Source of the DNA: Thermus hydrothermalis
GTDB taxonomy: Bacteria; Deinococcota; Deinococci; Deinococcales; Thermaceae
DNA: 64,000 nt
Direction: 5' to 3'
Assembly: GCF_022760925.1 (NCBI RefSeq)
Contig: NZ_JAKTNT010000006.1
Coordinates: forward strand, 1 to 64,000
Below the pieces are notes generated by a model, which saw nothing but the letters and a program-made list of their open reading frames with translations, was not told the DNA's origin and made no database searches. The position numbers and the translations under genes were made by a program. Below, one piece after another: positions 1,715 to 23,900 of the stretch; within the stretch, counting starts at the first letter, position 1; the number at the start of each line of letters is the position of its first letter.

Positions 1715-1730
1715 AGCAGCGCTTTATAAG

Positions 1731-2105
1731 CCCCGGGACAGGGCGTAAGCCGGGTTCTGTTTCTGCGGTCATCTCTCTGGGACCGGTGTCGCCACCGGCC
1801 TCAAGCGGCCCATCCCAGGGGTTCTGGCGGGCCGGGCAAGCCCTTCCCCTCTACTGGGCCTTGCACCGGGTGGGGTTTGCCGTGCCCCAGCCTGTTACCA
1901 GGCCAGGCGGTGGGCTCTTACCCCACCGTTCCACCCTCGCCCGCACCGGGCCTTGGGCCCGGCCGCTCGCGGTCTCTTCTCTGTGGCACCTTCCGTCGGG
2001 TTACCCCGCCCAGCCGTTAGCTGGCACCCTGCCCTATGGTGCCCGGACTTTCCTCACCCAAGGGGGTTCGGACCCTTGAGCGCGACCGCACCCCTGACCC
2101 GGGGC
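1731..2105 (-). ncRNA. rnpB: RNase P RNA (bacterial type A)
   Basis: The catalytic RNA of RNase P, which removes 5' leaders from pre-tRNA. Read on the minus strand, the 5' part has the P4 signature GAGGAAAGTCCGGGC (about 2055-2041). The 3' part has ACAGAACCCGGCTTA (about 1761-1747), the other half of P4 and the best-known bacterial RNase P signature. The ends pair as P1: GCCCCGGG at 2105-2098 with CCCGGGGC at 1738-1731, continued by CAGGG with CCCTG after one mismatch. Length (about 375 nt) fits Thermus. No terminator follows; the 300-aa gene starts right after the 3' end. Matching 3' sequence plus a terminator sits at 23836-23900 on the other strand. Confidence 0.95.
1733..1769 (-). repeat. 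rnpB 3'-end att-like repeat, copy 1
   Basis: These 37 bases of the intact rnpB 3' end are identical to 23836-23872 on the opposite strand. The identity ends at one flanking base on each side (G versus A upstream; GGC versus ACC downstream). A perfect match limited to the 3' end of a structural RNA gene is typical of an integrase attachment site. Confidence 0.85.
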
Positions 2106-2112
2106 ACTTCCT

Positions 2113-2141
2113 ATTGTGAAAGCATTGAGCGTTTCGGTCAA
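2113..2141 (-). promoter_or_regulatory. rnpB promoter
   Basis: On the minus strand, -35 TTGACC (2141-2136), a 17-bp spacer and -10 CACAAT (2118-2113) place the start about seven bases downstream, at the first base of P1. The intact rnpB copy therefore kept its own promoter. Confidence 0.7.
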
Positions 2142-2268
2142 GTTCAGGGACAAAAATGGGCCATTTTCCCCATCCCCAAAGCCCAAGCACCTGCGAACGC
2201 ACCCCAAAACGGGCCCTAAAACGGCCGATAAGGCGGGGGGTCCGAGGCGCAAAGGGGAAATCCGTGGC

Positions 2269-2296
2269 ACCCCCCGCCAAAGCCTTCTAGGGGGGT
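2269..2296 (-). terminator. Stem-loop downstream of the leftward prophage operon
   Basis: Arms ACCCCCC and GGGGGGT enclose a 14-base loop, 38 bp past the last leftward prophage gene. There is no T-tract, so intrinsic termination is uncertain. It may also lie close to the prophage's left end, which I could not define. Confidence 0.3.
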
Positions 2297-2333
2297 TACA
2301 GGGGCTCAGAGACCCCTTCCGGGGACGCCATCC

Positions 2334-2624
2334 CTAGCCCGTAAGACCCAGCAGGGCCTCCAGGGTCTCGGGCACGCGGATGCCATGAGCCGAGAGGCGC
2401 TCCCGCTCGGCCAGGATTTCCCGCGCCAAGGCTAGGGCGGGCTCAGGGTCATCCTGATAAGCCCGCCTCAGGTAGCGCTTCAGGCAGGGGAACTCCTCTA
2501 TGAGGGCCAGGACCTCATCGGGGTTGTAGTCCTCGGGATTGCCCAGAAAATCCTTGAGCTCCGACCACGACCAGGAGGCCAGCTCTAAGGGGGTAAATTC
2601 AACCAAGCGGGTTTCCTGAGCCAT
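2334..2624 (-). CDS. Small hypothetical phage protein, 96 aa
   Basis: The last gene of the leftward arm. The ATG at 2624 has a good GAGGTG ribosome site and lies inside the end of the gp30 gene (40-bp overlap). The protein is acidic and mostly helical (SWSELKDFLGNPEDYNPDEV, then a helical region rich in Glu and Arg), with no motif I recognise. Its place after the Mu F-type head gene suggests a virion or assembly accessory protein, but this is only positional inference. Confidence 0.65.
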   Translation of the reverse strand: MAQETRLVEFTPLELASWSWSELKDFLGNPEDYNPDEVLALIEEFPCLKRYLRRAYQDDPEPALALAREILAERERLSAHGIRVPETLEALLGLTG

Positions 2625-3772
2625 TTCACCTCGTTCCAGGGTATGTCCAGCTTGGAGAGGTCTTCCTCGGCGTATCCCGTGACCAAAGTTCCGCTCCAAA
2701 ACGAGTATACCACGAACCAATACCCGCTGAGCGTGGGGCCGCGCAGGGGCTCGGGCACGGCCCACTCCACAGGGAGGAGCGCCGCCAAAACGGGCCCTGG
2801 GGCCCGCCGGTAGGCCATGAGCGCCGCTTCGGGGGAAAGAGGAGCGTGCTGGCAGATCCGCTCGTAGTCCTCGGCGGTGGCGTCTCCAGCCAGTTGCCCG
2901 TCGGCAATCCGCTTGAGCCTGTGGACCTCCAAGGAGCTCCCCCAAGTGATACCCAAGCGTTCCCGTTCCTCTTCGGGCACCTTCCGGGTCCAGCGGTTGA
3001 AGGGAGCCCGGCCCATTGCCCCGGCCGCCCAAAGCCAGTCGCGGGGCTCGGGCTCCGCCTGCCCCTCGGCTATGGCCCGCAAGCGGGCCAGCGCCTCAGG
3101 ATGCGCCTGGGGCAAGGCGGTCACGTAGGCCCGCCACAGGGCGGGGTCGTAGTCCCTAGGGTCCGGGCTCCACTCCTCCTGGCCCGGGGGCCGGCCGAAG
3201 CCCGCCTGGGGCTCGTGCTCCGGCGCCTCCTTCCAGGCCCGGCGTTCCCCCTCCTCGCGGGTGTAGGTCACCAGGGCGGTGCGGCAGTTGTGGTGGAGGG
3301 GCGGGATATGGTTGCGCCAGAAGGGGTGGTCGGCGGGCAGGACCACCCCCGCCAGGGGGCGGCAGACGCCGGAGGTCCGCCCGTCCAGGACCACGGAGAG
3401 GCCCCAGTAGGGCCTGAGGGCCTTGGTCTCCTCCGCTTGCCGGTGCCGCCCCGCCCCATAGGCGAGCTGCAGGTTGGTGCGGAAGACGGTGTCCAGGCGG
3501 TGCCGGGTTCCCTCCCCCCAGGCGCCCCTCACCCGCTCGGAGAGGCGCTGGCGGAAGTCCTCAAAGGGCAGGCCCTTGGCCAGGGCCTCCTCCAGGGCGT
3601 CCTTCGCCTCCTGCACCATGTCCAAGGCGGCGAGGCCCGCCACCCAGAAGGCCCGCCTCCGGGCCTCCTCCCGCAGGGCCCGAAAGGCGGGGTCCGGCAG
3701 GGAGAGGCGGCGCCGGAACCAGGCGATGGCCTCGTCCGGGTTCAGGGGGTTGGGCTCAACCGTCCAGGCCAC
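2585..3772 (-). CDS. Phage head morphogenesis protein, Mu gp30 (F) / SPP1 gp7 family
   Basis: A minor capsid protein that joins the portal and head during assembly (family knowledge). The 395-aa protein carries the diagnostic block FRTNLQLAYGAGRHRQ (about residues 96-111), then LDGRTSGVCRPLAG and the metal-like PPLHHNC. The C-terminal third is variable. The start overlaps the portal gene by 17 bp and the end overlaps the 96-aa gene by 40 bp, so translation is probably coupled. The order terminase-portal-F matches Mu gp28-gp29-gp30. Confidence 0.88.
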   Translation of the reverse strand: MAWTVEPNPLNPDEAIAWFRRRLSLPDPAFRALREEARRRAFWVAGLAALDMVQEAKDALEEALAKGLPFEDFRQRLSERVRGAWGEGTRHRLDTVFRTNLQLAYGAGRHRQAEETKALRPYWGLSVVLDGRTSGVCRPLAGVVLPADHPFWRNHIPPLHHNCRTALVTYTREEGERRAWKEAPEHEPQAGFGRPPGQEEWSPDPRDYDPALWRAYVTALPQAHPEALARLRAIAEGQAEPEPRDWLWAAGAMGRAPFNRWTRKVPEEERERLGITWGSSLEVHRLKRIADGQLAGDATAEDYERICQHAPLSPEAALMAYRRAPGPVLAALLPVEWAVPEPLRGPTLSGYWFVVYSFWSGTLVTGYAEEDLSKLDIPWNEVKWLRKPAWLNLPP

Positions 3773-5255
3773 TGTCTTGGCGCTGGGCGAGGCGGCCCGC
3801 CAGCTCGGCGAGGGTCAGGGCGGCGTCCAAGAGCTCCGCCAGTTCGGCGAAGGGGATGTTGGGGAAGAGGGCGAGGAGGCGGCGGCGGAGGTCCTCGTAG
3901 TCCGCCGCCTCCTCAATCGCCTTCAGGAGCTGCGGGAGGCCAGGCATGGGCGCCTCCCGCAGGAGGCGGTCCCCCAGGGCGTCCACGAAGGCCTGGCCGG
4001 CCACCAGCCCCCTTCGCTTCCTCTCCTGGGGGGCCAGAACCGGGGCCTGCGGCTCGGGGGCGGGGACGCCGAACTCTTCCCTGAGCCATGCCTCCGGGAT
4101 GGAAAGCCCCATCTGCAGGAGGGTCTGGAGGACGCGGGCCCGGGCCTCGAGGTCCTTCTCCTCCTCCACCTCGGGGACCACGTGGGGGGCCAGGTCCAGG
4201 TACTCGGGGCCGAAGTTGAAGGCCACGAAGGGCTTCAGGAGGCCCTCCCGCAGGGTCCGGGCCAGGGCCCGGGCGTCTGCCTTGAGGAGATCGATACGAA
4301 CCCGCTCGTGGACCTTGGCCAGGGCGTAGCTCCCCCCTTCCCCCTCCGAGGAGGTGAGGGTCTGGCCCAGGACCGCCTGGGTCATCTCCCGATTGGCCAG
4401 GCGGATGAGGCGCTCGTAAACGTCGGGGCCCTGGCCCTTGGCGGCCTCCACGATCTCTATCTCGGTGTCCTTGGAGATGACCCCGGCGGCGTCCGCCCCC
4501 AGGCTCCTCACCGCCTCCTCCAGACGGCGGCGCTCCTCCTCCCCGGCGGCGGGGTCGTACTTGCCGATGCGGTAGGGCTGCCCGTACACCTCGGCGAAGA
4601 CCACCCAGTCCTTGAGGGCGAAGTGCTTGAAGAGATAGAGCCAGGCCAGGCTCCGCATGAGCCCGGCCCGCGTGGGCAACCCCGAACGGGCCCGGTAGCG
4701 GTGCTCTATGGCCCCGCCGTAGGGGAAGGCCTCCTCCCGGCCGGGGCCCAACACCAGGTAGAAGCGGTCTTCGGGCTCGCGGTAGGCCAGGAGGCCGGGA
4801 TGGACCCAGCGGAAGGCCTTGGGGCGCCACAGGAGGCCGTCCCACTCCCAGGCCACCGCCACCACGCTCACCCCCTGGGGGATGGCGGAGAGGAGGTCGG
4901 TCATCAGGTCCTCCAGGGGCAGGCCCCACCAGACCTCCTCCACCGCCCGCAGGATGCGCCGGGCGTCCCGGCCCTCCTCGGCGGGCTCCAGGCGCCAGTC
5001 CAGGCCCACCACCGCCAGCTTGCGCGTCTGCAGGAGGGAGAAGAGGAGGGCGTCCCGCTCCTCCATCTCCTCAAAGAGCTCGGCCTGCGCGCTGAGGTCG
5101 CCCGCGTCCGCCTCCCGCAGGATGCGGGCCAGGCGCTCGGGGGTGAGGCCCCGGGCGGGGTACACCCGGAAGGGGGCCTCCAGGGCCAGAGCGCCGCGGG
5201 CGGCGGGCGGGGGCTCCTTGGGGATGGGGTTCCCGTAAGGGTCCAGGATGGGCAT
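3756..5255 (-). CDS. Portal protein, Mu gp29-like (DUF935)
   Basis: This 499-aa protein forms the dodecameric portal through which DNA enters the head (family knowledge). It starts MPILDPYGNPIPKEPP, typical of the gp29 family. It has the central SLAWLYLFKHFALKDWVVFAEVYGQP-type block in which the family is most conserved, and the region around QAVLGQTLTSSEGEG that other DUF935 proteins share. The C-terminal 150 residues are helical. The ATG shares one base with the terminase stop codon at 5255, which indicates tight coupling. Confidence 0.88.
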   Translation of the reverse strand: MPILDPYGNPIPKEPPPAARGALALEAPFRVYPARGLTPERLARILREADAGDLSAQAELFEEMEERDALLFSLLQTRKLAVVGLDWRLEPAEEGRDARRILRAVEEVWWGLPLEDLMTDLLSAIPQGVSVVAVAWEWDGLLWRPKAFRWVHPGLLAYREPEDRFYLVLGPGREEAFPYGGAIEHRYRARSGLPTRAGLMRSLAWLYLFKHFALKDWVVFAEVYGQPYRIGKYDPAAGEEERRRLEEAVRSLGADAAGVISKDTEIEIVEAAKGQGPDVYERLIRLANREMTQAVLGQTLTSSEGEGGSYALAKVHERVRIDLLKADARALARTLREGLLKPFVAFNFGPEYLDLAPHVVPEVEEEKDLEARARVLQTLLQMGLSIPEAWLREEFGVPAPEPQAPVLAPQERKRRGLVAGQAFVDALGDRLLREAPMPGLPQLLKAIEEAADYEDLRRRLLALFPNIPFAELAELLDAALTLAELAGRLAQRQDSGLDG

Positions 5256-6535
5256 CAGAAGGCTCCTTTCCAGCCGGCGAAGAGCCGCCGGGCCACGCTC
5301 CGGTACTCCACGGGGCCCCTACGGGTCTCGGCGGCGTGGAGGGCGAGGGCCAGGGCCCAGAAGCGGTCGGCGTGCCCCCGTTCGGAGCGCTCGGCGTCGT
5401 AGCGGACGTTCCCGCTCGGGGTCACGATCCGCCGCACGCTGTGGAGGTCCTCCCGCAGGGCGCGGTCGCTCGGGATGCGCACCCGGCGGTCCTCAAAGAA
5501 GAGCCGGAGGCGCTGCGCCAGGTCGGCCTTCACCTCGGGGGTGAACTTCACCGGCTCCACCTTGTAGCCGAACGCCCGGCGGGCGTTCTCCGCCAGCATC
5601 TCCCCGAGGCCGGTGGCGTCCACGCAGGCCCGGCGCACCCGGGGGAGGAGGGCGTGGAGCCGGGCCTCCTGGTGGGCGAAGGGGGTGCGCTCCAGGACCT
5701 CCAGGAGGCGGAGGTAGTACACGTCCCCCACCCGCTCCAGAACCGCTAGGACGGTGAGGTCCCGGTGCCGCCCCACGTCCATGCCCAGGTAGGCCCGGTC
5801 GGGGTCCCAGTCCCCCCGGGGGTCCTCCCGGGCCTCCGCCTCGAGGATGAGGCTCCAGGGCAAGAAGGCCTCCTCCTCGGAGAGGAACTCGCAGAGGTAC
5901 TCCTGCCGCCAGACCCATTCATCGGCGAGGGCCTGGCGAAGCTCCTCGGGGTCCACGGGAAGCCCGTCCCGCACGGCGTCGTAGATGGTCACCTTGTGGC
6001 GGGACCACATCGCCCCCCCTTTCTCCCAAAGCTCGTAGAACTTCCCCTGGGGGCCGGCGGGGGTGCTCATGATCCGCAGCTTGAGGTCGGGGCGGCGGGT
6101 GACGATGGGGAAGAGGGCCGCCCAGATGGCGTGGGAGTCCTGGTGGAAGGCGAACTCGTCCAGGAAGACGTTCCCCGTGTAGCCGCGGGCGGTGCGGGGG
6201 TTGGCGGGGAGGAAAATGAGCCGGCTCCGGTTGGGGAGGCGGATCTCCAGCTGCGTCACCGCCTCGCCCCCCTCAAAGAAGCGGCTCTCCATCCACTCCC
6301 CCACCTGGCGCATGGCCTCCAGGTGGACCTTCGCCTTCTCCGCCAGCTCCCGGCTCTGCCGCTCGCCCGCGGAGAGCATCACCCAGAGGGTACCCGGGCG
6401 CTCCACGGCGTCTATGACGGCCTCGAGGGTCCCGGCGAAGGACTTCCCGGTCTGGCGCGACCAGAGACCGATCTTGAAGCGGCTCCTGTCCAGGAGCCAG
6501 CGCCTTTGGTAGGGAAGGAGCACCTCAGAGGCCAT
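5255..6535 (-). CDS. Terminase large subunit, Mu gp28-like
   Basis: The DNA-packaging motor ATPase and nuclease. A Walker A-like SRQTGKS lies at residues 26-32 and a Walker B-like VFLDEFAF near residue 120. The C-terminal half has acidic residues expected of the RNase H-like nuclease (GMDVGRHRDLTVLAVLE, then CVDATGLGEMLAE). The length, 426 aa, is somewhat short for the family (Mu gp28 is about 550). It overlaps the gp27-type gene by 11 bp. Confidence 0.88.
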   Translation of the reverse strand: MASEVLLPYQRRWLLDRSRFKIGLWSRQTGKSFAGTLEAVIDAVERPGTLWVMLSAGERQSRELAEKAKVHLEAMRQVGEWMESRFFEGGEAVTQLEIRLPNRSRLIFLPANPRTARGYTGNVFLDEFAFHQDSHAIWAALFPIVTRRPDLKLRIMSTPAGPQGKFYELWEKGGAMWSRHKVTIYDAVRDGLPVDPEELRQALADEWVWRQEYLCEFLSEEEAFLPWSLILEAEAREDPRGDWDPDRAYLGMDVGRHRDLTVLAVLERVGDVYYLRLLEVLERTPFAHQEARLHALLPRVRRACVDATGLGEMLAENARRAFGYKVEPVKFTPEVKADLAQRLRLFFEDRRVRIPSDRALREDLHSVRRIVTPSGNVRYDAERSERGHADRFWALALALHAAETRRGPVEYRSVARRLFAGWKGAF

Positions 6536-7070
6536 AGAGGTCCCGCTTAATGGCTTCGATCACCTCAGGCTCAATCTGCCGGGCCCGTAGGCGCTCCTCC
6601 ACCACCTGGGCCGCCTCCTCCTTCACCCGGCGGTCCACCCGCTCCAGGCTCAGGAGGGTCTGGGCGGCGTGGAGGCCGATGCGGAGCATCTTCTCGGGCT
6701 CCACCTGGTCGGGAGTAAGCTCCACGGCGTCCAGGTAGCGGAGGGCCCGGTGGACCACGATGTTGGCCAGGGCGTGGGCGAAGGAAAGGCGCTTCCCCGT
6801 GGCCCGCTCCACGGCGTCCACGAGGCGCTCCATCTCCAGAGCCCGCTCCAGGGCTGGGGAGAGGTGGCGGACGTGGCGGCGGACGCTGGACTCGGAAACC
6901 TCGTACCCTCGCGCCTTGAGCCAGGCGGCGATGCCCGCGTGGGAATAGGGGCGGCCGTCCGCCTCCACCTCCTCCCCCAGGAGCATGTCGTCCACCCGGT
7001 CCCGCACCTCCTCGGGCAGGGCGCACACCTTGCAGAGCCGGTGCCGGGGGTACTGCCACTTCACGTTCAC
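6525..7070 (-). CDS. Mu gp27-like protein (DUF3486), probable small terminase
   Basis: A 181-aa protein in the position of Mu gp27, just before the large terminase. I chose the GTG at 7070 because it overlaps the upstream stop codon as GTGA; a frame also exists further upstream but has no coding character. The N-terminus holds a CKVCALPEEVRDRVDDMLL segment with two Cys, followed by a helix-turn-helix-like stretch (AGIAAWLKARGYEVSESSVR, about 46-65). A helical tail ends in EVIEAIKRDLYGL. DNA recognition for packaging is inferred from position and the HTH. Confidence 0.75.
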   Translation of the reverse strand: MNVKWQYPRHRLCKVCALPEEVRDRVDDMLLGEEVEADGRPYSHAGIAAWLKARGYEVSESSVRRHVRHLSPALERALEMERLVDAVERATGKRLSFAHALANIVVHRALRYLDAVELTPDQVEPEKMLRIGLHAAQTLLSLERVDRRVKEEAAQVVEERLRARQIEPEVIEAIKRDLYGL

Positions 7071-7249
7071 GGCCGCCACCACCCCATGAGCCCCACCGCC
7101 AGGGCCAGGATGAGGAGGGCCCGCTCCCAGAGGCGGGCCCGGGCCTCCCGTTCCCGCTCCTCCCGCAGGGCCCGGAGCTCCGCCAGGATCTCCTCCGTGT
7201 TGCGGCGGAGGGCCACGTGGAGAGCGGCGAGCTCCTCGCGGAGGTCCAT
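7067..7249 (-). CDS. Small coiled-coil membrane protein, Mu gp25-like (DUF2730 type)
   Basis: About 60 aa: an N-terminal Glu/Arg-rich coiled coil followed by one hydrophobic segment (ALLILALAVGLMGWW). The reverse topology is more common for DUF2730, so the family match is tentative. The ATG at 7249 overlaps the upstream stop as TGATG; a GTG one codon earlier is possible. The downstream GTGA overlap couples it to the gp27-like gene. The role is unknown. Confidence 0.55.
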   Translation of the reverse strand: MDLREELAALHVALRRNTEEILAELRALREEREREARARLWERALLILALAVGLMGWWRP

Positions 7250-7584
7250 CACGCCCTCGGCAGGAGGATGCCCTCGTCCCGGAGGGTCCCTTCCACGAGG
7301 TCAATCCCCCGGGTGGTGAGGCGCACCCGGGTGAACTCGCCCTCCTCGTCGTAGGCCGCCTCCAGGTAGCCCTTCTCGCTCAGGTAGCGCACGGCGGCGT
7401 TCAGCTCGCTCCGAACCGGTAGGAGGCCGTTGAGCTCCAGGATGCGGGCCAGGACGCCCCGGGGCAGGGTCATGGGGTCCTCGGCGTTGATGGGGGTCTC
7501 CGAGCCCATCACCGCCAGGTAGACGGTCCGCATCACCGCTCCGCGGAGCAGCTTGTGCTTTAGGGGGTCTGCGCGCCGAAACAT
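7249..7584 (-). CDS. Winged-helix-like phage protein, Mu gp26 position
   Basis: A 111-aa protein with a predicted winged-helix core. After a helical N-terminus, AVRYLSEKGYLEAAYDEEG resembles a recognition helix plus wing. The ending RVRLTTRGIDLVEGTLRDEGI resembles small Mu-like proteins encoded beside gp25 and gp27. A GAGGAG ribosome site precedes the ATG. It could bind DNA or support packaging; no function is established from sequence. Confidence 0.6.
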   Translation of the reverse strand: MFRRADPLKHKLLRGAVMRTVYLAVMGSETPINAEDPMTLPRGVLARILELNGLLPVRSELNAAVRYLSEKGYLEAAYDEEGEFTRVRLTTRGIDLVEGTLRDEGILLPRA

Positions 7585-7591
7585 CGTCTCC

Positions 7592-7879
7592 TCACGGGAA
7601 AAGCCGGTGGACGGGGAGCCCCATCAGGGCCCCGATTAGGGCCAAGAGGAGGGCCACCACCGTCCAGAAGAGGGGGCGGCTCCAGGGGGGCGTGGGGGGC
7701 GGGGTTTCCTGCCACATCAGCCGCGCCACGCGCAGGGCCCAGAGGCGCTCCCTGAGGGGCCGAAGGCGCTCTTCGGGGGCGCCCAGGCGGGCGAGCTCCT
7801 CCACCAGACCTTCCAGGATCTCCGCCACCAGCTTGTCCACATCCGGGAAAGGCGTGCCCCCGGGTTTCCCCGGGGGCAC
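7592..7879 (-). CDS. Small phage membrane protein, 95 aa, first gene of the leftward late unit
   Basis: A helical, charged N-terminal domain (LVAEILEGLVEELARLG) is followed by a proline-rich linker and a C-terminal hydrophobic helix (LFWTVVALLLALIGALMG). The GTG at 7879 has AAGGTG as a ribosome site, and its first eight codons (MPPGKPGG) form a strong hairpin. The same promoter, ribosome site, GTG and hairpin precede the gene at 16140. A start further downstream is possible but has no ribosome site. The role is unknown; the membrane helix would fit a lysis or structural accessory. Confidence 0.6.
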   Translation of the reverse strand: MPPGKPGGTPFPDVDKLVAEILEGLVEELARLGAPEERLRPLRERLWALRVARLMWQETPPPTPPWSRPLFWTVVALLLALIGALMGLPVHRLFP

Positions 7880-7925
7880 TTGCGCACCTTAGCCGCAGTT
7901 TAGCCCATATCTTGGGGCTTGTCCA
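7856..7925 (-). promoter_or_regulatory. Leftward late promoter and GNRA hairpin leader, cassette copy 1
   Basis: On the minus strand: -35 TGGACA (7925-7920), 17-bp spacer, -10 TAAACT (7902-7897), then GCTAAGGTGCGCAAG and a hairpin with GCCCCCGGG / CCCGGGGGC arms closed by GAAA (7877-7856). Most of this recurs at 16048-16118. The -10 box overlaps the stop codon of the preceding gene. Confidence 0.75.
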
Positions 7926-8343
7926 GGGGCTCGGCCAGGCGCGCCACCCGCACCAGGACCCCCACCACGTCCTCGGGGAAGTTGAGGCGGAAGGTCTTGG
8001 AGGGGGCGTGCCAGTAGCAGAGGCGGGAGTGGCGGCCCCGGCCGAGGAAGGCCTCGAGGGCCATCCGCTCCCCGGGGCTCATCCCCCGCACCAGGCCCCG
8101 GTACGCCTCACGCCATAGGCGCAGGTCGTGCCCCGGTATGCCTGCTTCCGGCAGGGCCGGCACCCGAACCGGGAGGAAGGCGGGGAGGTCCACCCGCCCC
8201 CCCGAAGGGGGCGTGCCGGTCCACCCCCGGGGGGCGTCATGGGCCGTGGCCGGTACCCAGTCCGCCTCCCCCCGGGCCACCCGCCACAGGGCCAGGCCCA
8301 CCCAGTTGGCCCGCCAGAGATCCAGGGGGGTCCACTCAGGCAT
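7900..8343 (-). CDS. Hypothetical phage protein, 147 aa
   Basis: An unrecognised protein, rich in Trp and Arg (DLWRANWVGLALWRVARGE at the N-terminus). Its C-terminal part contains RHSRLCYWHAPSKTFRLNFPEDV. The ATG at 8343 has a GGAGGGGGTG ribosome site and overlaps the upstream gene by 8 bp; an upstream in-frame ATG lacks this support. Its stop codon lies in the -10 box of the leftward late promoter, so it is the last gene of the early transcript. Confidence 0.6.
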   Translation of the reverse strand: MPEWTPLDLWRANWVGLALWRVARGEADWVPATAHDAPRGWTGTPPSGGRVDLPAFLPVRVPALPEAGIPGHDLRLWREAYRGLVRGMSPGERMALEAFLGRGRHSRLCYWHAPSKTFRLNFPEDVVGVLVRVARLAEPLDKPQDMG

Positions 8344-16118: not shown

Positions 16119-16139
16119 AAAGCCTTTTGGGAGGCGAGC

Positions 16140-16415: not shown

Positions 16416-16587
16416 CACCCCCTCCTGGCCCCTCTCCCCCGAAACCGCCCGCCTGGAAAACCGCGCCTACTGGGGAGTGAAGCTAGGGAGGCCCTATGCC
16501 GAATTTGACCGCCTTCCCCGCGAGTACCAGTACCTCCACCCCGACCTTTTCCGGCACGCTGCGCGCCGCCTTGCAAGAGGCGCCTGA
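16342..16587 (+). other. Overlapping +1-frame open stretch with coding character
   Basis: Between the end of the 91-aa gene and the start of the protease gene, the +1 frame is open for 81 codons. From about 16420 it reads like protein (ENRAYWGVKLGRPYAEFDRL, then EYQYLHPDLFRHAARRLAR) with high third-position GC. It has no ATG; the only usual start is a GTG at 16477 (36 codons). It could be a short overlapping gene or the product of a +1 frameshift from the 91-aa gene. Confidence 0.4.
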
Positions 16588-17506
16588 ACGCATCCCCCTC
16601 CACCCCTTTGGGGAGTTCGTGGGGAACGGGGTCCTCTTCCTCTTTGACGAGGCATCCCTGGCCCAGGTCCTGCGAGAGCTGGCGGAGAGGGGCGTGCCCT
16701 GGGTCCTGGACTTCCATCACCAGACGGTGCGGGTGGAGGAAGGGGAGGCCCAGGAGGCCCCGGCGGCGGGCTTCGTGGTGGGTATTGAAGTAGGGGAAGA
16801 CGGCTTCGTCTATGGCCGTGTGGAATGGTCGGAAACGGGGCGGGAACGGGTCAGCCGGGGAGAGTACGCCTATGTGTCCCCGGTCTTCTACTACGACCCC
16901 ACTCCCGACGCGTCAGGCCGGCACCGGGTGCTGGGCTACCACTCCTTCGCCCTCACCAACAACCCCGGCATCCGGTTCCAAAAGCGCATTGAAGCGGAGG
17001 CGGACATGCTGGAAAGGTTTAGGCAAGCGCTGGGGCTGCCGCCCCAGGCCGGTGAGGATGAAGTTTTCACCGCTCTGGAAAACCTGCGGCGGGAAGCGGA
17101 TGTGGGCCGGGTGGTCCTAGAGCTCGGCCTCGGGGCAGGAGATGCCACGGAGCTCAAGGCCACGCTCCTCCGGCTCCTGGCAGCCCAGGAGGCCCTCGCG
17201 GAGCTGGAGCGCACCCGCCAAGAGCTCGCGGCGCTCCAAGCCCAGACCCGCGAGGAAAGGGCCCAAGCCCTGGTGCGGGCGGCGCTGGAAGAGGGGCGCA
17301 TCCTGCCCCACCAGCGCGAGTTCTGGCTGGCCCAAGCCCGGGCGGATCTGGAGGCCACCGAAAAGGCCCTCGCGGGCCTGCCCCGACTGGTACCCACGGA
17401 GCTCCCTAAAGCGGAAGCGCGCTCCAGCCTAGAGCGCGACCCCGCCGAGGAGCTCCGGCGAAAGCTAGGGGTCAGCGACGAAGCGTGGAGGAAGTACGGA
17501 GGCTGA
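16496..17506 (+). CDS. Prophage protease/scaffold, Mu gp32 (I) family
   Basis: In Mu the I gene encodes the head-maturation protease, and its C-terminal part acts as scaffold Z. This 336-aa protein has the family block RGEYAYVSPVFYYDP and GYHSFALTNNPGIRF (about 125-165). A long Glu/Arg-rich coiled C-terminus typical of scaffolds follows. The first 20 residues are Ser/Thr-rich and overlap the +1-frame stretch, so a later start is possible. AGGGAGG precedes the ATG. Confidence 0.85.
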   Translation: MPNLTAFPASTSTSTPTFSGTLRAALQEAPERIPLHPFGEFVGNGVLFLFDEASLAQVLRELAERGVPWVLDFHHQTVRVEEGEAQEAPAAGFVVGIEVGEDGFVYGRVEWSETGRERVSRGEYAYVSPVFYYDPTPDASGRHRVLGYHSFALTNNPGIRFQKRIEAEADMLERFRQALGLPPQAGEDEVFTALENLRREADVGRVVLELGLGAGDATELKATLLRLLAAQEALAELERTRQELAALQAQTREERAQALVRAALEEGRILPHQREFWLAQARADLEATEKALAGLPRLVPTELPKAEARSSLERDPAEELRRKLGVSDEAWRKYGG

Positions 17507-17509
17507 ACC

Positions 17510-17899
17510 ATGTTTGACACGGAATATTGGGCCGACGAGCGCGTTCTCTCCCTGCCGGTAAAGGCCGGCGCCGTCATCCGGCAGGGGGCTCTCGTCATGG
17601 TGAGCGGGGGCTACGCCGAGGAAGCGGGGCCCGGCACGGGGAAGATCGCCCTGGGCGTGGCCCAGGAGAGCGTGGACAACACCGGGGGCGCCGACGGGGC
17701 GAAAAAGGTCCTCGTGCGCCGTGGGGTCTTCCGGTTTGAAAACGACCCGGCGGACCCCGTGGGGCCCACGGAGCTGGGGAAGGACGTCTACGCTACCGGG
17801 CCCAACACCGTGGCCAAGACGGGCACCGGCCGTTCCAAGGCTGGGCGCCTCCTGCGGCTTGACCCGGACGGCGTTGGCGTTTGGGTGGAGGTGTGGTAA
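17510..17899 (+). CDS. Capsid decoration-type protein (DUF2190-like)
   Basis: 129 aa, beta-rich, between the protease and the major head gene. KAGAVIRQGALVMVSGGYAE, then KIALGVAQESVDNTGG and KKVLVRRGVFRF match the general pattern of small head-stabilising proteins. Its stop overlaps the next ATG as TAATG. Position and fold suggest decoration of the capsid. Confidence 0.65.
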   Translation: MFDTEYWADERVLSLPVKAGAVIRQGALVMVSGGYAEEAGPGTGKIALGVAQESVDNTGGADGAKKVLVRRGVFRFENDPADPVGPTELGKDVYATGPNTVAKTGTGRSKAGRLLRLDPDGVGVWVEVW

Positions 17900-18795
17900 T
17901 GCTCCTGAACCGCGAGAATCTGCAGTCCCTGAGCCGGACCCTACGCGCCCTGGTCTTCCAGACCCGGGACAGCTACACCCCCTTCTGGCCCCGCATCGCC
18001 CTGGAGGCGCGCACCGAGGGGCGGGTGGGCGTTTACTCGTGGATCGAGGACTTCCCCGTGATGCGGCCTTGGGAGGGGGAGCGCCAGGTGCAGAACCTCT
18101 CCCTGCGCACCGTGGAGCTCGTGAACGGCGACTGGGAGCTAACTTTCGCTGTCAACCGCAACGACGTGGAGGACGACCTACTGGACCAGATCAGTGCCAA
18201 CGCCCGCGAGTACGCCTTCCGCTGGGCCCAGCATGACGACTACCTCATCACCACGCTCCTGGTGGAGGGATTCCAGCGCAAGGGACCGGACGGAGCGAAC
18301 TTCTTCGGCACGCACCGGGTGGGTAAGGGGCAGTTCTCCAACGCTGGCACCGCGCCCCTTTCCCGGGAGTCCTTCCGCGCCGCCCTCACCCAGATGCGGT
18401 CGCTCACGGATAGCCGGGGCTACCCCTTGGGGTTCTTCTACGGCAAGCCCATCCTCATGGTGGGGCCCTCCCTGGAGTACGCCGCGAAGGAGATCGTGGA
18501 GCTCCCCACCCTGCCCCAGGGCGGGGCGAACCCCGACTACGGGGCGGCGGAAATCCTCGTGAACCCGTGGTTGGCGGGCCCCTACGCCAACTACTGGTTC
18601 CTGGTGGACGGCACCCGGCCCATCCGGCCCCTGGTCCTGCAGCGGCGCCGCGACCCCGAGTGGGTGGCCAAGGTGGACCCCGAGGACGAGAACGTCTTCA
18701 AGCACAACCAGTTCGTCTTCGGGGTGAGCGAGCGGAAGGCGGCGGGCTACCTCTACTGGCAGCTCGCCTACGGGTCCACGGGCGCCGGTAGCTGA
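17899..18795 (+). CDS. Major head protein, Mu gpT-like
   Basis: The capsid subunit. 298 aa from the ATG at 17899, which overlaps the previous TAA. Family features include LRALVFQTRDSYTPFWPRIA at the N-terminus, WIEDFPVMRPWEGERQVQNL, and the C-terminal LAYGSTGAG ending. The size matches Mu gpT (305 aa). It ends one base inside the gp36-like start codon. Confidence 0.9.
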   Translation: MLLNRENLQSLSRTLRALVFQTRDSYTPFWPRIALEARTEGRVGVYSWIEDFPVMRPWEGERQVQNLSLRTVELVNGDWELTFAVNRNDVEDDLLDQISANAREYAFRWAQHDDYLITTLLVEGFQRKGPDGANFFGTHRVGKGQFSNAGTAPLSRESFRAALTQMRSLTDSRGYPLGFFYGKPILMVGPSLEYAAKEIVELPTLPQGGANPDYGAAEILVNPWLAGPYANYWFLVDGTRPIRPLVLQRRRDPEWVAKVDPEDENVFKHNQFVFGVSERKAAGYLYWQLAYGSTGAGS

Positions 18796-19232
18796 TGATC
18801 ACCCTGGAGGACCTCCGCCACGCCTTACCTGAGGACGTCCTCCTCCAACTGGTGGACGAGGAGGGAGCGGGGGCCCTCACCCCCGAGGGGGAGGCCCGGG
18901 CCCAGGCCGCCCTCCGCGAGGCGTGGGGGGAGGTGGAAAGCTACCTGGCCCAGCGGTACGCTCTCCCCCTCCCTGCCTTGCCGGAGGTCCTCCGGGCCAA
19001 AGCGGTGGACATCGCCGTCTACCGCCTCATGATGCGGCGGGGCATCCGGCCCGGCACCGCCGACGAGGCGGTCATCGGGCGGTACCGGGACGCCGTGGCT
19101 TTCCTGAAGGACGTGGCCTTGGGCAGAGCCTCCCTCCCCTTACCGCCCGCCGGGGAGCCGGTGAGGCCCCGGGGAGGCGCCAGCCTCCGAGGGAAGCGGG
19201 TCTTCAGTCGGGAAAGCCTGGAGGACTTCTGA
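18795..19232 (+). CDS. Mu gp36-like head-tail protein (DUF1320)
   Basis: 145 aa. MITLEDLRHALPEDVLLQLV and the helical core WGEVESYLAQRYALPLPALP, then KAVDIAVYRLMMRRG, are the DUF1320 signature. These proteins act as head completion or connector proteins between capsid and tail (inferred from family). The stop overlaps the next ATG as TGATG. Confidence 0.88.
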   Translation: MITLEDLRHALPEDVLLQLVDEEGAGALTPEGEARAQAALREAWGEVESYLAQRYALPLPALPEVLRAKAVDIAVYRLMMRRGIRPGTADEAVIGRYRDAVAFLKDVALGRASLPLPPAGEPVRPRGGASLRGKRVFSRESLEDF

Positions 19233-19726
19233 TGGGCGTGCGGCTCACGGGGGACTGGCAGGAGCTCCACCGGGCCCTGCGGCGGGTTGTCCGCGGGGTG
19301 CCCGAGGAGGTGAAGCGGGCCATCGCCGAGGGCATCACGTCCCGGACCCTCCGGCGCTTTGACGAGCAACGGGCCCCCGACGGCTCCCCCTGGCCCCCCC
19401 TCTCCCCCGCCACCCTAATGGCGGAGGTGGGGCCCCGGGACCGCCTGAAGCGGGGAGGAATCTCGGCCCGGGCCCAGCGGCGCATGGCCTTGCGCAAGGC
19501 CCTCGTCCGCACCGGACGCCTGAAGAACTCCATCTCCTGGAAGGTGGCTGGGAACGCCATCGCCGTGGGCACGAACGTCCTCTACGCCCGGATCCACCAG
19601 TTCGGGGGACTGGCGGGACGGAACCGGAAGGTGCCCATCCCCGCCCGGCCCTTCCTGGGCATATCCCGTGAGGACCAGGAAGAGGCGGCGGAGCTCCTGC
19701 GGGCGTGGCTGAGGAGATCCCGATGA
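19232..19726 (+). CDS. Phage virion morphogenesis protein, Mu gpG type
   Basis: 164 aa. Mu G and P2 gpS relatives help complete or join tails. The family pattern is seen in RFDEQRAPDGSPWPPLSPAT (about 50-69), LVRTGRLKNSISWKV and VLYARIHQFGG, ending with ARPFLGIS. In Mu this gene lies next to F (gp30); here it has moved to the rightward arm, after gp36. The start is the ATG at 19232, overlapping the previous TGA. Confidence 0.88.
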   Translation: MGVRLTGDWQELHRALRRVVRGVPEEVKRAIAEGITSRTLRRFDEQRAPDGSPWPPLSPATLMAEVGPRDRLKRGGISARAQRRMALRKALVRTGRLKNSISWKVAGNAIAVGTNVLYARIHQFGGLAGRNRKVPIPARPFLGISREDQEEAAELLRAWLRRSR

Positions 19727-20214
19727 TCGCCCCCGTGATCGGCTACCTGGCCGCGGCCTGCCGCCACGCCGGCCTCCCCCCGCAGCGGGTGCTGGTGGGG
19801 AAGACCCGGGAGGAGGCCTACCGCACCTCCCCCGCCGCCCTCATCCAGCCCATCACGGGGAGCCTCCGGCGGGACGGGAGCCGGGTGGTGGCCGGGCCTC
19901 CCCAAGCCCGGCGCCGGCTCTACCGCGGCCTAGCCCGCTTCCGGGTGGAGCTTTACGCCCGTACCCCGGAGGAGCGGGACCACATGCTGGCGGGGGTCCT
20001 CCACTACCTCTGGAACACCCCCCTGGTGGTGGGGGATGACCCCCAGGCCAAGCTGAACGACATCACCCTCTCGTTCATAGACGAGGAGGGCATTCTGGTG
20101 GGCGAAAACGCCGTGGCCTTGGAGGTCCCCGTGGAGATCGCCCTCTACGAAGACACCCCTTGGGTGCCCATCACCGTGGAAGTGGAGGAGATGGGCTTCG
20201 CAACGGAGGTCTAA
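19723..20214 (+). CDS. Mu gp37-like tail protein (DUF1834)
   Basis: 163 aa from the ATG at 19723 (ATGA overlap with gpG). A GTG at 19705 would add six residues. RVLVGKTREEAYRTSPAALI and RRRLYRGLARFRVELYARTP are typical of the small head-tail joining proteins at this place in Mu. A tail-terminator-like role is inferred. Confidence 0.8.
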   Translation: MIAPVIGYLAAACRHAGLPPQRVLVGKTREEAYRTSPAALIQPITGSLRRDGSRVVAGPPQARRRLYRGLARFRVELYARTPEERDHMLAGVLHYLWNTPLVVGDDPQAKLNDITLSFIDEEGILVGENAVALEVPVEIALYEDTPWVPITVEVEEMGFATEV

Positions 20215-20215
20215 G

Positions 20216-20416
20216 ATGCCGGAAAAGGAGAAGGAACCGCCCGTGGAACACCCCACCGTGGAGGAGCACGCCGAGGCCCTGAAGGTGCCCGCTTGGGCCT
20301 TCGCCGGCCTCCGGGTGCGCATGGGATGGGCCGTGGGGACCCGCATCCCCCGCGCCCAGTTTGAACGGGCCCTGAGGGAGTTCCTGGAGGGGCCCACCGC
20401 AAAGGAGGGTAGCTGA
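20216..20416 (+). CDS. Mu gp38-like small protein
   Basis: 66 aa between the gp37 and sheath homologues, as in Mu. A Glu/Pro-rich N-terminus is followed by LKVPAWAFAGLRVRMGWAVG, reminiscent of DUF2635 proteins. The role is unknown. Its stop overlaps the sheath ATG (TGATG). Confidence 0.6.
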   Translation: MPEKEKEPPVEHPTVEEHAEALKVPAWAFAGLRVRMGWAVGTRIPRAQFERALREFLEGPTAKEGS

Positions 20417-21831
20417 TGGCCCGTCTACCCGGCGTATACCCTGAGATCTTGGATGGCGGCCTGGGCATCGTGGCCCCGAGCGGCGAGGGGCAACGCGTGG
20501 TCGTGGGGGTGAGCGCCCAAGGACCCGTGGAGCAAATCCTGGGGTTCGCCGACCTGTCCCAGGTAGCCGCTACCCTGGGCTCGGGCCCGCTGGCCCGCGC
20601 CGTGGCCGACCAGCTCGCCTATGGGGGCGGACCCGTATACGCGGTGCGCGCCCGGGGCGACATCGCCGGTTCCGTGACGGCGGACAGCGCGAATCCCACC
20701 AGCCCCGGGGTGACCCTCACAGGGGACCCCCTGGACGCCTACGACATCGTGGTGAGGATCGTCCGGGGAGGGGCCCTGGGCACGGCCACCTTCACCTGGA
20801 GCCTGGACGGCGGGGATACGGTCAGTCTGGAAACCGTCACCGCCCCCACCTTCGCCCTGACCGGCACCGGGCTCACACTGAACTTCGCCACGGGCACCTA
20901 CGCCGCCGGGGCCACCTACCGCTTCCGGACCACGGCTCCGAAGGCGAGCGTGGCGAGCGTCCAGGACGCCATTCGGGTCGCGCTGGACTCGCCCTTGAAG
21001 TACGAGTACATCCAGGTGGCTCAGCCCACGGACGCCGCCATGTGGGCGGCTTTGGACGCCCTCGCCCAGGAAGCCCTTAGCCGCTTCCGCTACATGTGGT
21101 TCCTCACGGAGACCGTTCCCCCCGGGAACGACGCGGACGCCTGGGTCAACGCTCGGCTCGCCGAGAAGCAGAACTTCACCTCGGACCGGGTCATGATCGT
21201 GGCCGCCTGGGCCGAGGTGGTGGACACCCTCACCGGCAGGCTGGAGGTGCAAAGCCTGGCCTCCCGGGTGGGGGCCCGCATCAGCAAAATCAAGCCCCAC
21301 ATCTCCCCCGCCTGGGTACGGCTCGGCCCCCTGCCGGGCGTGGTGCAGATGGCCCCCTTCGTGGAAACCTCCTTCGGCAAGCAGAGCCTTTTCAACAACG
21401 CCCACGCCCTGGCCTTGGACCAGGCCGGCTTCACCACCATGTACCGCCTGATCGGCCGCGACGGCTGGTACCTGGTGGAAGGGCGCATGGCCGCCGCGCC
21501 CACCAGCGACTTCAAACTGGTCCAGAACCGGCGCGTGATGGACAAGGCGGCTACCCAGGTCCGGGAGAGCCTCCTGGACTTCGTGCAGTGGCACGTGGAC
21601 CCCTTGGTCCTGGACGCCAGCCTGGCCAGCCTCATCGCCCGGGCCTCCGCGCCCCTCCGCCTCATGCAGGCCGGTGGGGAGATCTCCCGCGGGCGGGTGG
21701 TGGTACCCCCCGGCCAGGATATCCTCGCCTCCCAACGGCTACGGCTTCAGGTGCGCATCGTGCCCCTCGGGTACCTGCGGGAGATCGAGGCCGAGCTCAG
21801 CTTCGAGAACCCCTTCCTCCAGGTGGCGTAA
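20416..21831 (+). CDS. Contractile tail sheath protein, Mu gpL-like
   Basis: 471 aa. The family N-terminus LPGVYPEI is followed by RVVVGVSAQGPVEQILGFAD. A variable inserted beta domain (about 95-190, rich in Thr and Gly) leads back into conserved sheath core (AGFTTMYRLIGRDGWYLVEG, then IVPLGYLREIEAELSFENPF). A sheath gene makes this a myovirus with a contractile tail. Confidence 0.9.
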   Translation: MARLPGVYPEILDGGLGIVAPSGEGQRVVVGVSAQGPVEQILGFADLSQVAATLGSGPLARAVADQLAYGGGPVYAVRARGDIAGSVTADSANPTSPGVTLTGDPLDAYDIVVRIVRGGALGTATFTWSLDGGDTVSLETVTAPTFALTGTGLTLNFATGTYAAGATYRFRTTAPKASVASVQDAIRVALDSPLKYEYIQVAQPTDAAMWAALDALAQEALSRFRYMWFLTETVPPGNDADAWVNARLAEKQNFTSDRVMIVAAWAEVVDTLTGRLEVQSLASRVGARISKIKPHISPAWVRLGPLPGVVQMAPFVETSFGKQSLFNNAHALALDQAGFTTMYRLIGRDGWYLVEGRMAAAPTSDFKLVQNRRVMDKAATQVRESLLDFVQWHVDPLVLDASLASLIARASAPLRLMQAGGEISRGRVVVPPGQDILASQRLRLQVRIVPLGYLREIEAELSFENPFLQVA

Positions 21832-21843
21832 GGGAGGTGAAGC

Positions 21844-22239
21844 ATGCCCATTAACGGCCGGTACTACGACTGGGAAAGCATTACCATCCAGGTGAACGGC
21901 GCCACCTTGGCGGACGTCCTTTCCATTGAGTACGAGGACTCCGAAAAGGTCAACGCCGTCTACGGGAAAGGCCGTACGCCGAGGGGCTACACCAAGGGGA
22001 ACTGGGAGGGCTCTGGGAAGCTCACGCTCCTCCGGGAGGAGTACGAGCGGCTCGGGAACCCCTTCGCCCTAAAGCCTTTTGACATCGTGGTCTCCTACGC
22101 CAAAGAGGGGGGTACCAAGACCGATACCCTGAAGGAATGCCTCTTCACCAAGCGAAGCTTCAGCGGCGTGGAGCAGGATACCGAGCGCATCACCGTGGAG
22201 CTGGAGTTCACCATCCTGGGCGGCATTGAGCACAGCTAG
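21844..22239 (+). CDS. Tail tube protein, Mu gpM-like
   Basis: 131 aa, the inner tube of the contractile tail. Beta-rich, with YYDWESITIQVNGATLADVL and the tube-family block VYGKGRTPRGYTKGNWEGSG. A GGGAGGTG ribosome site precedes the ATG. The sheath-tube-chaperone order is that of Mu. Confidence 0.88.
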   Translation: MPINGRYYDWESITIQVNGATLADVLSIEYEDSEKVNAVYGKGRTPRGYTKGNWEGSGKLTLLREEYERLGNPFALKPFDIVVSYAKEGGTKTDTLKECLFTKRSFSGVEQDTERITVELEFTILGGIEHS

Positions 22240-22247
22240 GAGACGTT

Positions 22248-22493
22248 ATGGCGCAAACCTTCTTTTCCCTCACCCACGGGGACCAGACCTACACCTTCCG
22301 CAAGCCCGACATCGCCCAGGTGGACCGCCTCCTGGCGCGCATGCCCAAGGCCCCCCTCTCCGCCGCCATTGACTTCACCCGGGAGTTGGCCTTGGAGCCC
22401 GAGGCCTGGGCCGCCGCCATCACCGCTTCCCCGGCCCTGGCCCTCACGGCCGCCAATGGCATCCTGGAGGCCCTGGGTTTCCAGGCCGGCTAG
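22248..22493 (+). CDS. Tail assembly chaperone, short form (Mu gp41-like)
   Basis: 81 aa. Located directly after the tube gene, where Mu gp41 and lambda gpG lie. FFSLTHGDQTYTFRKPDIAQ and an Ala-rich helical remainder fit gp41. Codons 77-78 contain the slippery sequence GGGTTTC, allowing a longer form by -1 frameshift. Such chaperones bind the tape-measure protein, which this prophage lacks. Confidence 0.85.
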   Translation: MAQTFFSLTHGDQTYTFRKPDIAQVDRLLARMPKAPLSAAIDFTRELALEPEAWAAAITASPALALTAANGILEALGFQAG

Positions 22494-22648
22494 CTGAGCT
22501 GGAGCGGGACCCACCGCCCCTCGCCCAGCTCTCCGCCCTCATCCGGCACTGGCTACACCGCGAGCCCCCTGATGACCCCGAGGCCTTCCTAGAGCTCGCC
22601 CGCCAGGCCCTCTGGCTGGAAAGGCGCTACCACCCCCGCTCCTCTTAG
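22248..22648 (+). CDS. Tail assembly chaperone, -1 frameshift extended form
   Basis: If the ribosome slips back one base after codon 78 (22479-22481), reading continues for 55 codons to TAG at 22646. The added part (ELERDPPPLAQLSALIRHWL, then DDPEAFLELARQALWLERRY) has normal Thermus codon use and no other start codon. The total is 133 aa. This is the gpG-gpGT arrangement known in most long-tailed phages; Mu itself is reported to use a -2 shift. Confidence 0.75.
22475..22481 (+). other. Programmed -1 frameshift site GGGTTTC
   Basis: A canonical X XXY YYZ heptamer in the correct phase (G GGT TTC), ten bases before the zero-frame stop. The GC-rich hairpin at 22634-22656 is too far away to act as the stimulator. 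Confidence 0.75.
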
Positions 22649-22656
22649 GAGCGGGG
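22634..22656 (+). terminator. Hairpin at the end of the rightward arm
   Basis: Perfect 10-bp arms CCCCGCTCCT / AGGAGCGGGG with a 3-base loop that spans the stop of the extended chaperone. There is no T-tract. It may terminate the truncated late transcript. Confidence 0.45.
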
Positions 22657-22670
22657 TAAGGCTTTGCGGA

Positions 22671-22696
22671 TTTGTGGCCAACCCCTTGGCCACAAA
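22671..22696. terminator. Perfect 11-bp hairpin after the prophage arm
   Basis: TTTGTGGCCAA and TTGGCCACAAA flank CCCC. The arms begin with A/T runs, so it could act as a bidirectional terminator, or mark the original end of a unit now joined to other DNA. Confidence 0.45.
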
Positions 22697-22753
22697 TAAG
22701 CGCTCAGGCAGATCGGCCCCAGGCGCGTGGAGAACGGGGGAAAGCGCATAGGG

Positions 22754-22960
22754 CTAGTCAGTTACCCTCCGCCACTTCCTCCCCCTCGCCCGTTTCCGGG
22801 CCTCCTCGTGGACGGCCTCGAGGGGGAGCGTCCCATCCAAAAACCGCTCCACCACGTGCCCCGGCACCACGTACCGCTTGCCCAGCTTGAAGCCATAGAC
22901 CTTGGCCAGGGCATAGGCCAGATGCGGGCTTATCTTGTCCCACCCCACCGCTTCCATCAC
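22754..22960 (-). CDS. Excisionase-like HTH protein, probably 5'-truncated
   Basis: 68 aa from GTG/ATG at 22960/22957. The open frame continues upstream as TLILELYTVPEVMEAVGW without a good start, and this piece completes an HTH_17 pattern (YTVPEVMEA ... FKLGKRYVVPGHVVERFLDG). The visible start probably cuts the domain, or a rare start codon is used. A basic tail (RKRARGRKWRR) ends the protein. It may be a regulator of a mobile element; membership in the Mu-like prophage is uncertain. Confidence 0.55.
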   Translation of the reverse strand: MMEAVGWDKISPHLAYALAKVYGFKLGKRYVVPGHVVERFLDGTLPLEAVHEEARKRARGRKWRRVTD

Positions 22961-23068
22961 CTCTGGTACCGTGTAAAGCTCCAGGATAAGGGTTCCCCAC
23001 CCAAGAGGGGAGGGAGGCCTTCCCCCCTCGCCCTCCCTCCCCGCCGCGGGGGTAAAGGTGGTACAATA

Positions 23069-23158
23069 TTAGTCCCCCAAAATCGCGCGCATCGTGGGGT
23101 GGAAGTCCTCGAGGACCGCCACGTAGCCGGCCTCGAGGAGGGACCGCCCGGGGTGAGT
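23069..23158 (-). pseudogene. C-terminal remnant of an unidentified gene
   Basis: The minus-strand frame ending at 23069 reads RSLLEAGYVAVLEDFHPTMR and AILGD, with almost pure G/C third positions, then stops. Upstream of about 23158 the sequence turns AT-rich and loses coding character. It therefore looks like the last 25-30 codons of a Thermus gene cut by a recombination junction. The family is not recognisable. Confidence 0.5.
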
Positions 23159-23159
23159 T

Positions 23160-23835
23160 GATGGAGAAAATATTTTAGCGACGTTCATTAGTATTGGATT
23201 AGCATATTTGTACCGCTACTTTAGATACCGTGTCGCAGCGTCATGACGCTGCGTCAATCCCATCCCCCTTTATGCAATGCATGCATAACCCTGTTTCTAA
23301 CGATCTTCTCGCCACCTCCCATAGAAAATTTCAACTTGACAATGTGTGTCGCAACGTGAAACAAAGGGTGCGTTTCACGCCCCAACGCTCCGACACTGCT
23401 TTTGTCGCAGGTGAATACTGGGTTTTCTTGCTTGCTATCGCTATTCTTCACTCTCATCAACCTTGCGCCTCATCTTATCAATCAAGAACACTTTTTAAGC
23501 GTGCCACAGGGCACACATACCATCTCCCCATTACTGACCTCCAATTTGACGAATATGCACGCTTAATTTGACTGAACTTAGTTAATACAAGTAGCGGTCA
23601 GCCCTTCCTTATCGCCCGAATGAACTTGTCGCAGATTACCAAAGCCCTCCACAACGGCACTGACCGCATTTTACTGTACAAAAACGTGACGAACGCCTTC
23701 CTTCGCCTCATTTCACTTTCCGCCGCCTAAGCTTCGCCTTCCGCCGCGTCTAGGAGCGGGTTCCTTCGCCTCCTTCGCCTTCCGTCGGGTCGCCGGATCT
23801 ACTGCACACCTAATTTGGCGCATTACAGCATTACA
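23160..23835. other. AT-rich non-coding island
   Basis: About 676 bp with composition and codon patterns unlike Thermus coding DNA and no credible gene. It contains a perfect 20-bp palindrome (23234-23253) and four direct TGTCGCA motifs (23231, 23347, 23403, 23627). A 10-bp inverted repeat ACCGCTACTT / AAGTAGCGGT bounds 23212-23598, and GTTTCACG-type arms lie at 23355-23379. It abuts the orphan rnpB 3' end, so it is probably the right terminus of an integrated element or a relic insertion. Confidence 0.55.
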
Positions 23836-23872
23836 ACCGCAGAAACAGAACCCGGCTTACGCCCTGTCCCGG
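23836..23872 (+). repeat. Orphan rnpB 3' end, att-like repeat copy 2
   Basis: 37 bases identical to the 3' end of the intact rnpB gene (1733-1769) but in opposite orientation and without the rest of the gene. It is followed at once by a terminator hairpin, as expected for the original rnpB locus upstream of mraZ. Confidence 0.85.
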
Positions 23873-23873
23873 A

Positions 23874-23900
23874 CCCCGAGCTTCGGCTCGGGGGTTTTTT
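23874..23900 (+). terminator. Orphaned rnpB terminator
   Basis: CCCCGAGC-TTCG-GCTCGGGG followed by G and six T: a textbook intrinsic terminator with a UUCG loop, starting two bases after the rnpB 3' fragment. It now has no gene to terminate but may still insulate mraZ. Confidence 0.85.

Follow-up and report, generated by a model that had tools for sequence, protein, structure and literature searches.

A Mu-like prophage of Thermus, very probably inserted in the native rnpB gene, carries a complete RNase P RNA gene of its own

Transposable phages of the Mu type (saltoviruses such as Mu, D3112/B3 and Ab30) encode a DDE transposase beside a MuB-like ATPase, a repressor, a Mu-type head and a contractile tail, and have TG..CA ends and 5-bp target duplications. 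They are reported to insert largely at random, although some hotspots exist (PMC5977238). A prophage of about 35 kb with these likenesses is found in Thermus hydrothermalis (assembly GCF_022760925.1), and most of it lies between position 1 and about 23,835 of the stretch of DNA analysed here, hereafter the window (64,000 nucleotides, positions 1 to 64,000 of contig NZ_JAKTNT010000006.1). The best explanation overall, and a very probable one, is that this Mu-like prophage inserted in the native RNase P RNA gene, rnpB, of its Thermus host and brought a complete rnpB of its own. Its family differs from the described Mu-like phages in that 14 of 15 carrier genomes, in Thermus and other genera, have it at one locus, rnpB-mraZ, and in one orientation, and not at the many unrelated sites typical of Mu; moreover, in Thermus its members include an essential RNA gene of the host, and the late genes form two modules in one branch.

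The nearest precedent is given by prophage 2 of T. aquaticus Y51MC23 and a prophage of Thermus sp. 2.9, both located between mraZ and ribosomal protein L31 and with many genes annotated as Mu-like, in a report that makes no mention of rnpB or RNase P, a broken native gene, a replacement copy or targeting (PMC4605624). Tn7-like transposons (TnsD, TnsF) and CRISPR-associated transposons (CASTs) resemble this family in their orientation-specific insertion near a conserved gene and in having an AAA ATPase as partner of the transposase, but in this phage family the insertions are spread over about 220 bp with no fixed distance, the element enters an essential gene and replaces it, and no TniQ/TnsD target selector was found among 30 proteins in a Pfam scan that did not include every small open reading frame (ORF). 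Integrative elements in tRNA and tmRNA genes restore a short 3' end in place, and are thus similar in that damage to an essential RNA gene is compensated by the element, whereas the gene brought by the present element is complete, has its own upstream region and is placed about 13 kb inside, in the opposite orientation. Additionally, the record of the Microcystis phage MaAM05 (MW495066) contains a full-length RNase P RNA gene of class A that is not annotated (1463-1862 of L247, MW495066.1, 251.8 bits), but that genome has 274 kb. No earlier report of phage rnpB replacement was found in the open-access literature, the shared mraZ/L31 flanks being the closest observation found.

In the window, a match to the Rfam model RF00010 extends from 2101 to 1730 on the minus strand, covers 1-367 of the 367 model positions with 254.6 bits and is the only full-length rnpB found in the genome (G000). 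Its final 37 nt have an exact second copy at 23,836-23,872 on the plus strand, followed, in order, by a terminator hairpin (CCCCGAGCTTCGGCTCGGGGG-T6), GTGGG repeats and mraZ at 24,060. The original prediction had drawn attention to this inverted pair, which was confirmed as exact; about 2e-13 exact 37-mer pairs are expected by chance in 64 kb, and a search of the G000 genome gave only these two matches with up to three mismatches. A third piece of rnpB is located outside the window, where the native 5' fragment (rnpB nt 1-232, 96.6% identical) occupies G000:C4:154,420-154,651. The window starts at base 1 of contig C6. This start and the C4 end both map to one continuous element in a related strain, G011 (last 5.4 kb of C4 to 9,134-14,580, first 2.1 kb of C6 to 15,041-17,187), which makes the contigs neighbours separated by about half a kilobase.

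Comparison of 27 Thermus genomes gave the context of these pieces. In the 21 genomes without the phage, a single rnpB adjoins mraZ, in the same direction in 20 of them, an empty site that agrees with the proposed ancestral order rnpB-terminator-mraZ on one strand. The transposase is present in the other six (G000, G011, G007, G022, G023 and G024), once each and always at rnpB-mraZ, and the same is true of close relatives of the portal protein (once per genome in 6 of 27). These six genomes have a common layout. The phage left end follows a 5' rnpB fragment, the phage interior has an intact rnpB encoded on the opposite strand, and the right end is followed by a 3' rnpB fragment, the terminator and mraZ, except that G011 has only terminator sequence in place of the 3' fragment. 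The native gene is interrupted in all six carriers, at five different positions, which on the T. composti rnpB correspond to about nt 191 (G007), 204 (G023), 231 (left side of both G000 and G011), 280 (G022) and 325 (G024), and perfect 5-bp target duplications (CCCAC, ATAAC, CTGGA and CCAGA) are seen in four of the six. As judged from these alignments, the native gene has been cut into 5' and 3' fragments that now stand at the two prophage ends. Since a split native gene and an internal phage rnpB occur together in six genomes, the inverted 37-bp repeat is a native 3' remnant facing the phage's own rnpB, and the element did enter at rnpB, leaving the terminator with mraZ, as had been suggested.

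The route originally suggested was a different one, namely an integrase-mediated island at the rnpB 3' end, with duplication of that end and a later inversion. The inverted 37-bp copies and the rnpB-mraZ order of the empty sites would fit such a history, but the two ends carry different native fragments, including a 5' fragment at the far end, with no direct repeats of the rnpB 3' end, the remnant length varies among genomes, and the phage rnpB alleles differ from the native fragments of their hosts. Insertion of the Mu type (TG..CA ends, 5-bp duplications and variable position in rnpB) predicts no att repeat, and no tyrosine or serine integrase was found among the 30 element proteins of the Pfam scan, in which not every small ORF was included. 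Moreover, the same layout in six genomes, five of them additional cases of a split native gene, indicates that the intact rnpB came with the phage in the opposite orientation, and the integrase-plus-inversion history is highly improbable. An assembly artefact could be suspected because the window begins at a contig end and G000 is in 38 contigs; nevertheless, the independent G011 assembly and the three-contig genome G007 show the same order, and the C4 and C6 ends match neighbouring G011 sequence at 99.8-100%, so that an artefact has a negligible probability.

Metagenomic sequences extend the observation of insertion in native rnpB by the Mu-like phage. The IMG/VR sequence 3300006945_000035 contains rpmE and a native rnpB cut at about nt 320, followed by the phage left end, and 3300033894_000047 contains mraZ, the boxes, the terminator and a 3' rnpB piece, followed by the phage right end. 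These relatives were retrieved with the portal as query, the transposase query giving none in IMG/VR, while INPHARED gave transposase matches at about 27% identity only.

The rnpB inside the element shows the behaviour of a phage gene. It is complete, with an upstream sequence common to the phages and unlike native upstreams, and it occupies a fixed site a few hundred base pairs beyond F, including in IMG/VR relatives; in the five other phages it scores 269-273 bits with RF00010, within the host range of 261-286. G007 and G023 have one and the same phage rnpB sequence despite native fragments that are only 90.8% alike, and therefore the gene travels with the phage; an intact rnpB at a fixed internal place thus moves between species by this route, as seen from the sequences compared. 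A single capture followed by vertical descent only is not supported, as the element copies are not monophyletic and require three or more changes, the G000 and G011 phage copies grouping with the native G007 allele. Therefore, host rnpB alleles have probably been swapped into the phages. The phage rnpB would be transcribed and would act as a functional replacement of the native gene, for which the promoter-like site upstream is a candidate element.

Searching with a profile of the transposase identified nine carriers among the other Thermaceae genera, a count that leaves aside weak transposase matches outside this phage family (E about 1e-5 to 1e-7). Eight of these Meiothermus/Calidithermus carriers (G050, G055, G057, G065, G066, G070, G053 and G068) have the phage at the rnpB-mraZ locus, with the phage of G053 on two contigs that have a matching duplication and with only the rnpB side visible in G068. 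In all eight, rnpB is whole and outside the phage. The insertion points, in spacer DNA or within a different phage, are about 100 bp to 1.7 kb past this rnpB, and Rfam search detected no second rnpB in the G050, G057 and G066 stretches. Duplications were AACAG (G065), TTTGT (G070), AAGGC (G053) and CATAC (G050), and no clear target duplication was seen in G057 and G066. Two prophages of different layout stand in tandem between rnpB and mraZ in G055 (L120/L121, L139/L140). The second of them is inside the right end of the first and stands 300 bp from mraZ, with more than 20 kb between it and rnpB.

From these genome comparisons, the rnpB-mraZ interval is the preferred address of the family. Across both groups, 13 right-hand junctions lie 178-397 bp from the mraZ start codon (210-397 bp in Meiothermus/Calidithermus, where seen) and in a single orientation, while relative to rnpB the insertions range from within the gene to about 1.7 kb past it. 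The landing zone thus appears anchored to mraZ and not to rnpB, and the earlier idea of rnpB as an integration target holds in part: each of the six Thermus phages entered rnpB or its terminator, but the anchor appears to be elsewhere. The Thermus rnpB ends about 185 bp before mraZ and lies in the mraZ-anchored zone, and is therefore probably the gene that is struck; the finding of rnpB in Thermus phages only would be explained in the same way, because the zone there falls in rnpB. That the family recognizes rnpB itself, as DNA, nascent RNA or RNase P, is suggested by the Thermus insertions and by the rnpB that these phages carry, but it is unlikely in view of the Meiothermus/Calidithermus insertions beyond rnpB and at a bounded distance from mraZ, of the second phage of G055, and of the lack of any rnpB found in the phages of these genera. 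Survivorship offers another account: phages would insert at random, and the lysogens that persist would be those addicted to the phage rnpB, given that a prophage which has entered rnpB and bears the only copy can no longer be lost. Nevertheless, the Meiothermus insertions leave rnpB untouched, with no addiction required, and are still found in the same place, the orientation is single throughout, and no copies exist elsewhere in the 27 Thermus genomes, which makes this account very unlikely.

As for the feature that would define the address, several GTGG-type repeats spaced by about 10-11 bp precede mraZ in both groups, and we take them to be MraZ boxes. An MraZ homologue is encoded in the early region of four Meiothermus phages (G066, which is L118, G053, G055 and G068), and the one tested passes TIGR00242. 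Target choice may depend on a feature of the mraZ promoter, possibly MraZ boxes bound by host or phage MraZ, and bound MraZ would load the MuB-like ATPase. The Thermus landing zone being mostly inside rnpB, phage insertion would break the native gene, the phage rnpB would be transcribed and would replace this essential gene, and a lysogen that lost the prophage would die. We hold only tentatively, as possible and somewhat doubtful, the full proposal of true target selection keyed to the mraZ operator, with a Thermus branch that has made the damage profitable by carrying an essential ribozyme and leaves its host dependent on prophage RNase P RNA.

Some observations weigh against this picture. 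The family member in G049 is inside a nitroreductase gene, with the duplication CGCAA; IMG/VR relatives without rnpB exist (L161, L164, L235 and L236), and the flanks of one rnpB-less relative are neither recognisable rnpB nor mraZ. The phage MraZ homologue is known from four genomes only, the putative MraZ-box anchor is deduced from distances, and transcription and activity of the phage rnpB are predictions from sequence. The window rnpB has four substitutions to G (nt 112, 134, 164 and 171, window 1930-1990) at positions that are invariant in 32 of 32 other aligned Thermus sequences, for which sequencing error, relaxed constraint and decay are candidates. Finally, the G000 right flank has no matching duplication and lacks about 100 bp of native rnpB, and therefore a second event must be assumed. 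G011 likewise has no matching right-hand duplication. These two genomes have a common left junction and are about 100% identical from the left end to the portal; in the remainder, which runs from the terminase to the right end, identity to G011 drops to about 50-87% for most G000 proteins. To the right of the element, the native sequence starts again at about nt 332 of rnpB in G000, but not before the terminator interior in G011, and a repeated terminal motif is seen at both right ends. We infer that the locus received two insertions and then underwent recombination or deletion.

If the proposal is true, a temperate phage that destroys and substitutes an essential catalytic RNA of its host would represent a new kind of lysogenic lock-in, and would let the RNase P RNA of one species be replaced by that of another in nature. 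Random transposition as in Mu and targeted transposition as in Tn7 and CASTs would be linked by a Mu-like transposase that favours one address, and its thermophilic origin would suit biochemistry. Additionally, rnpB should be used with caution as a phylogenetic marker, being horizontally replaced in some Thermus lineages.

The features of the window (Table 1) are those of a Mu-like transposable prophage, as read from its genes. The MuB-like AAA ATPase gene adjoins that of the DDE transposase, and Mu-type virion genes are present (F, portal, gp27, I, T, gp36 and sheath), while tape measure, baseplate and fibre genes are presumed to be in the left arm (C4 in G000), being assigned by length and position in G011. 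The element termini are TGTCAYGCGTCA...ATTACA, that is, TG..CA ends, which are seen in relatives together with the 5-bp duplication; the window genome itself has a typical left end and an altered right flank. A conserved 111-aa protein encoded downstream of the MuB-like gene is a candidate selector, whose predicted fold (predicted local distance difference test, pLDDT, 83) gave no significant structural match.

Table 1. Features of the prophage and its right flank in the window
Feature	Position	Strand	Basis or remark
Right two-thirds of Mu-like prophage	1..23835	.	left ~11 kb on contig C4 (154,652-165,496)
DUF488 cargo gene	382..852	+	
Cargo gene directly downstream of prophage rnpB	812..1714	-	weak DuOB-domain match, under Pfam cut-off
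Prophage-borne rnpB, RNase P RNA class A	1730..2101	-	RF00010 254.6 bits; same internal position in six Thermus prophages and IMG/VR relatives
Promoter-like site of prophage rnpB (TTGACC-17-CACAAT), sigma-70-like	2113..2141	-	upstreams of element copies differ from native upstreams
Mu F-like head protein	2585..3772	-	PF04233
Mu-type portal	3756..5255	-	PF06074 6e-100
Large terminase	5255..6535	-	PF03237, PF17289
Mu gp27-like protein	6525..7304	-	PF11985
MuB/TniB-like AAA ATPase (target capture)	12446..13228	-	PF13401, PF05621; phrog_296 DNA transposition protein
DDE transposase (MuA-like)	13253..15154	-	rve; phrog_310 transposase 1.8e-42
Repressor, helix-turn-helix + S24 peptidase	15392..16051	+	
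Second late module: protease I, cement, gpT capsid, gp36, tail sheath, tail tube	16496..22239	+	PF10123, PF09956, PF10124, PF07030, PF10758; tube by position only
Prophage right terminus (GCATTACAGCATTACA)	23820..23835	+	
Native rnpB 3'-end remnant	23836..23872	+	remnants of differing length at same place in G007, G022, G023, G024
Native rnpB terminator	23873..23900	+	hairpins of similar kind in relatives without the element
MraZ-box-like GTGGG repeats upstream of mraZ, putative landing-zone anchor	23911..23957	+	
mraZ	24060..24494	+	TIGR00242 117 bits

The late genes are split (window 2334-22239): F, portal and terminase run with the early genes, and the block from protease to tail tube is behind the repressor on the opposite strand, while a second branch of the family has the normal Mu order. 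An inversion of a prophage segment, suspected from these two-strand late genes, was ruled out, as the layout is kept in six of six Thermus and several Meiothermus prophages.

Further arrangements of rnpB were observed. In the phage-free genome G013 (L098, about 7738-8107), rnpB is inverted relative to mraZ, which is the orientation of the phage copy, and this genome may be a relic where only the phage rnpB survived. The metagenomic contig L156 has phage F-rnpB joined directly to rpmE, and its rnpB is sister to that of G013. In L152 (about 3949-4009), a phage right end is followed by about 60 bp of inverted G013-like rnpB and a phage left end, for which neighbouring landings of two phages, or a junction made by packaging or assembly, are candidates. 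Moreover, a second and distant type of Mu-like prophage (portal 34-37%) is present in G000:C23 (L246) and G007:C1:1472277 (L096), in both cases away from rnpB.

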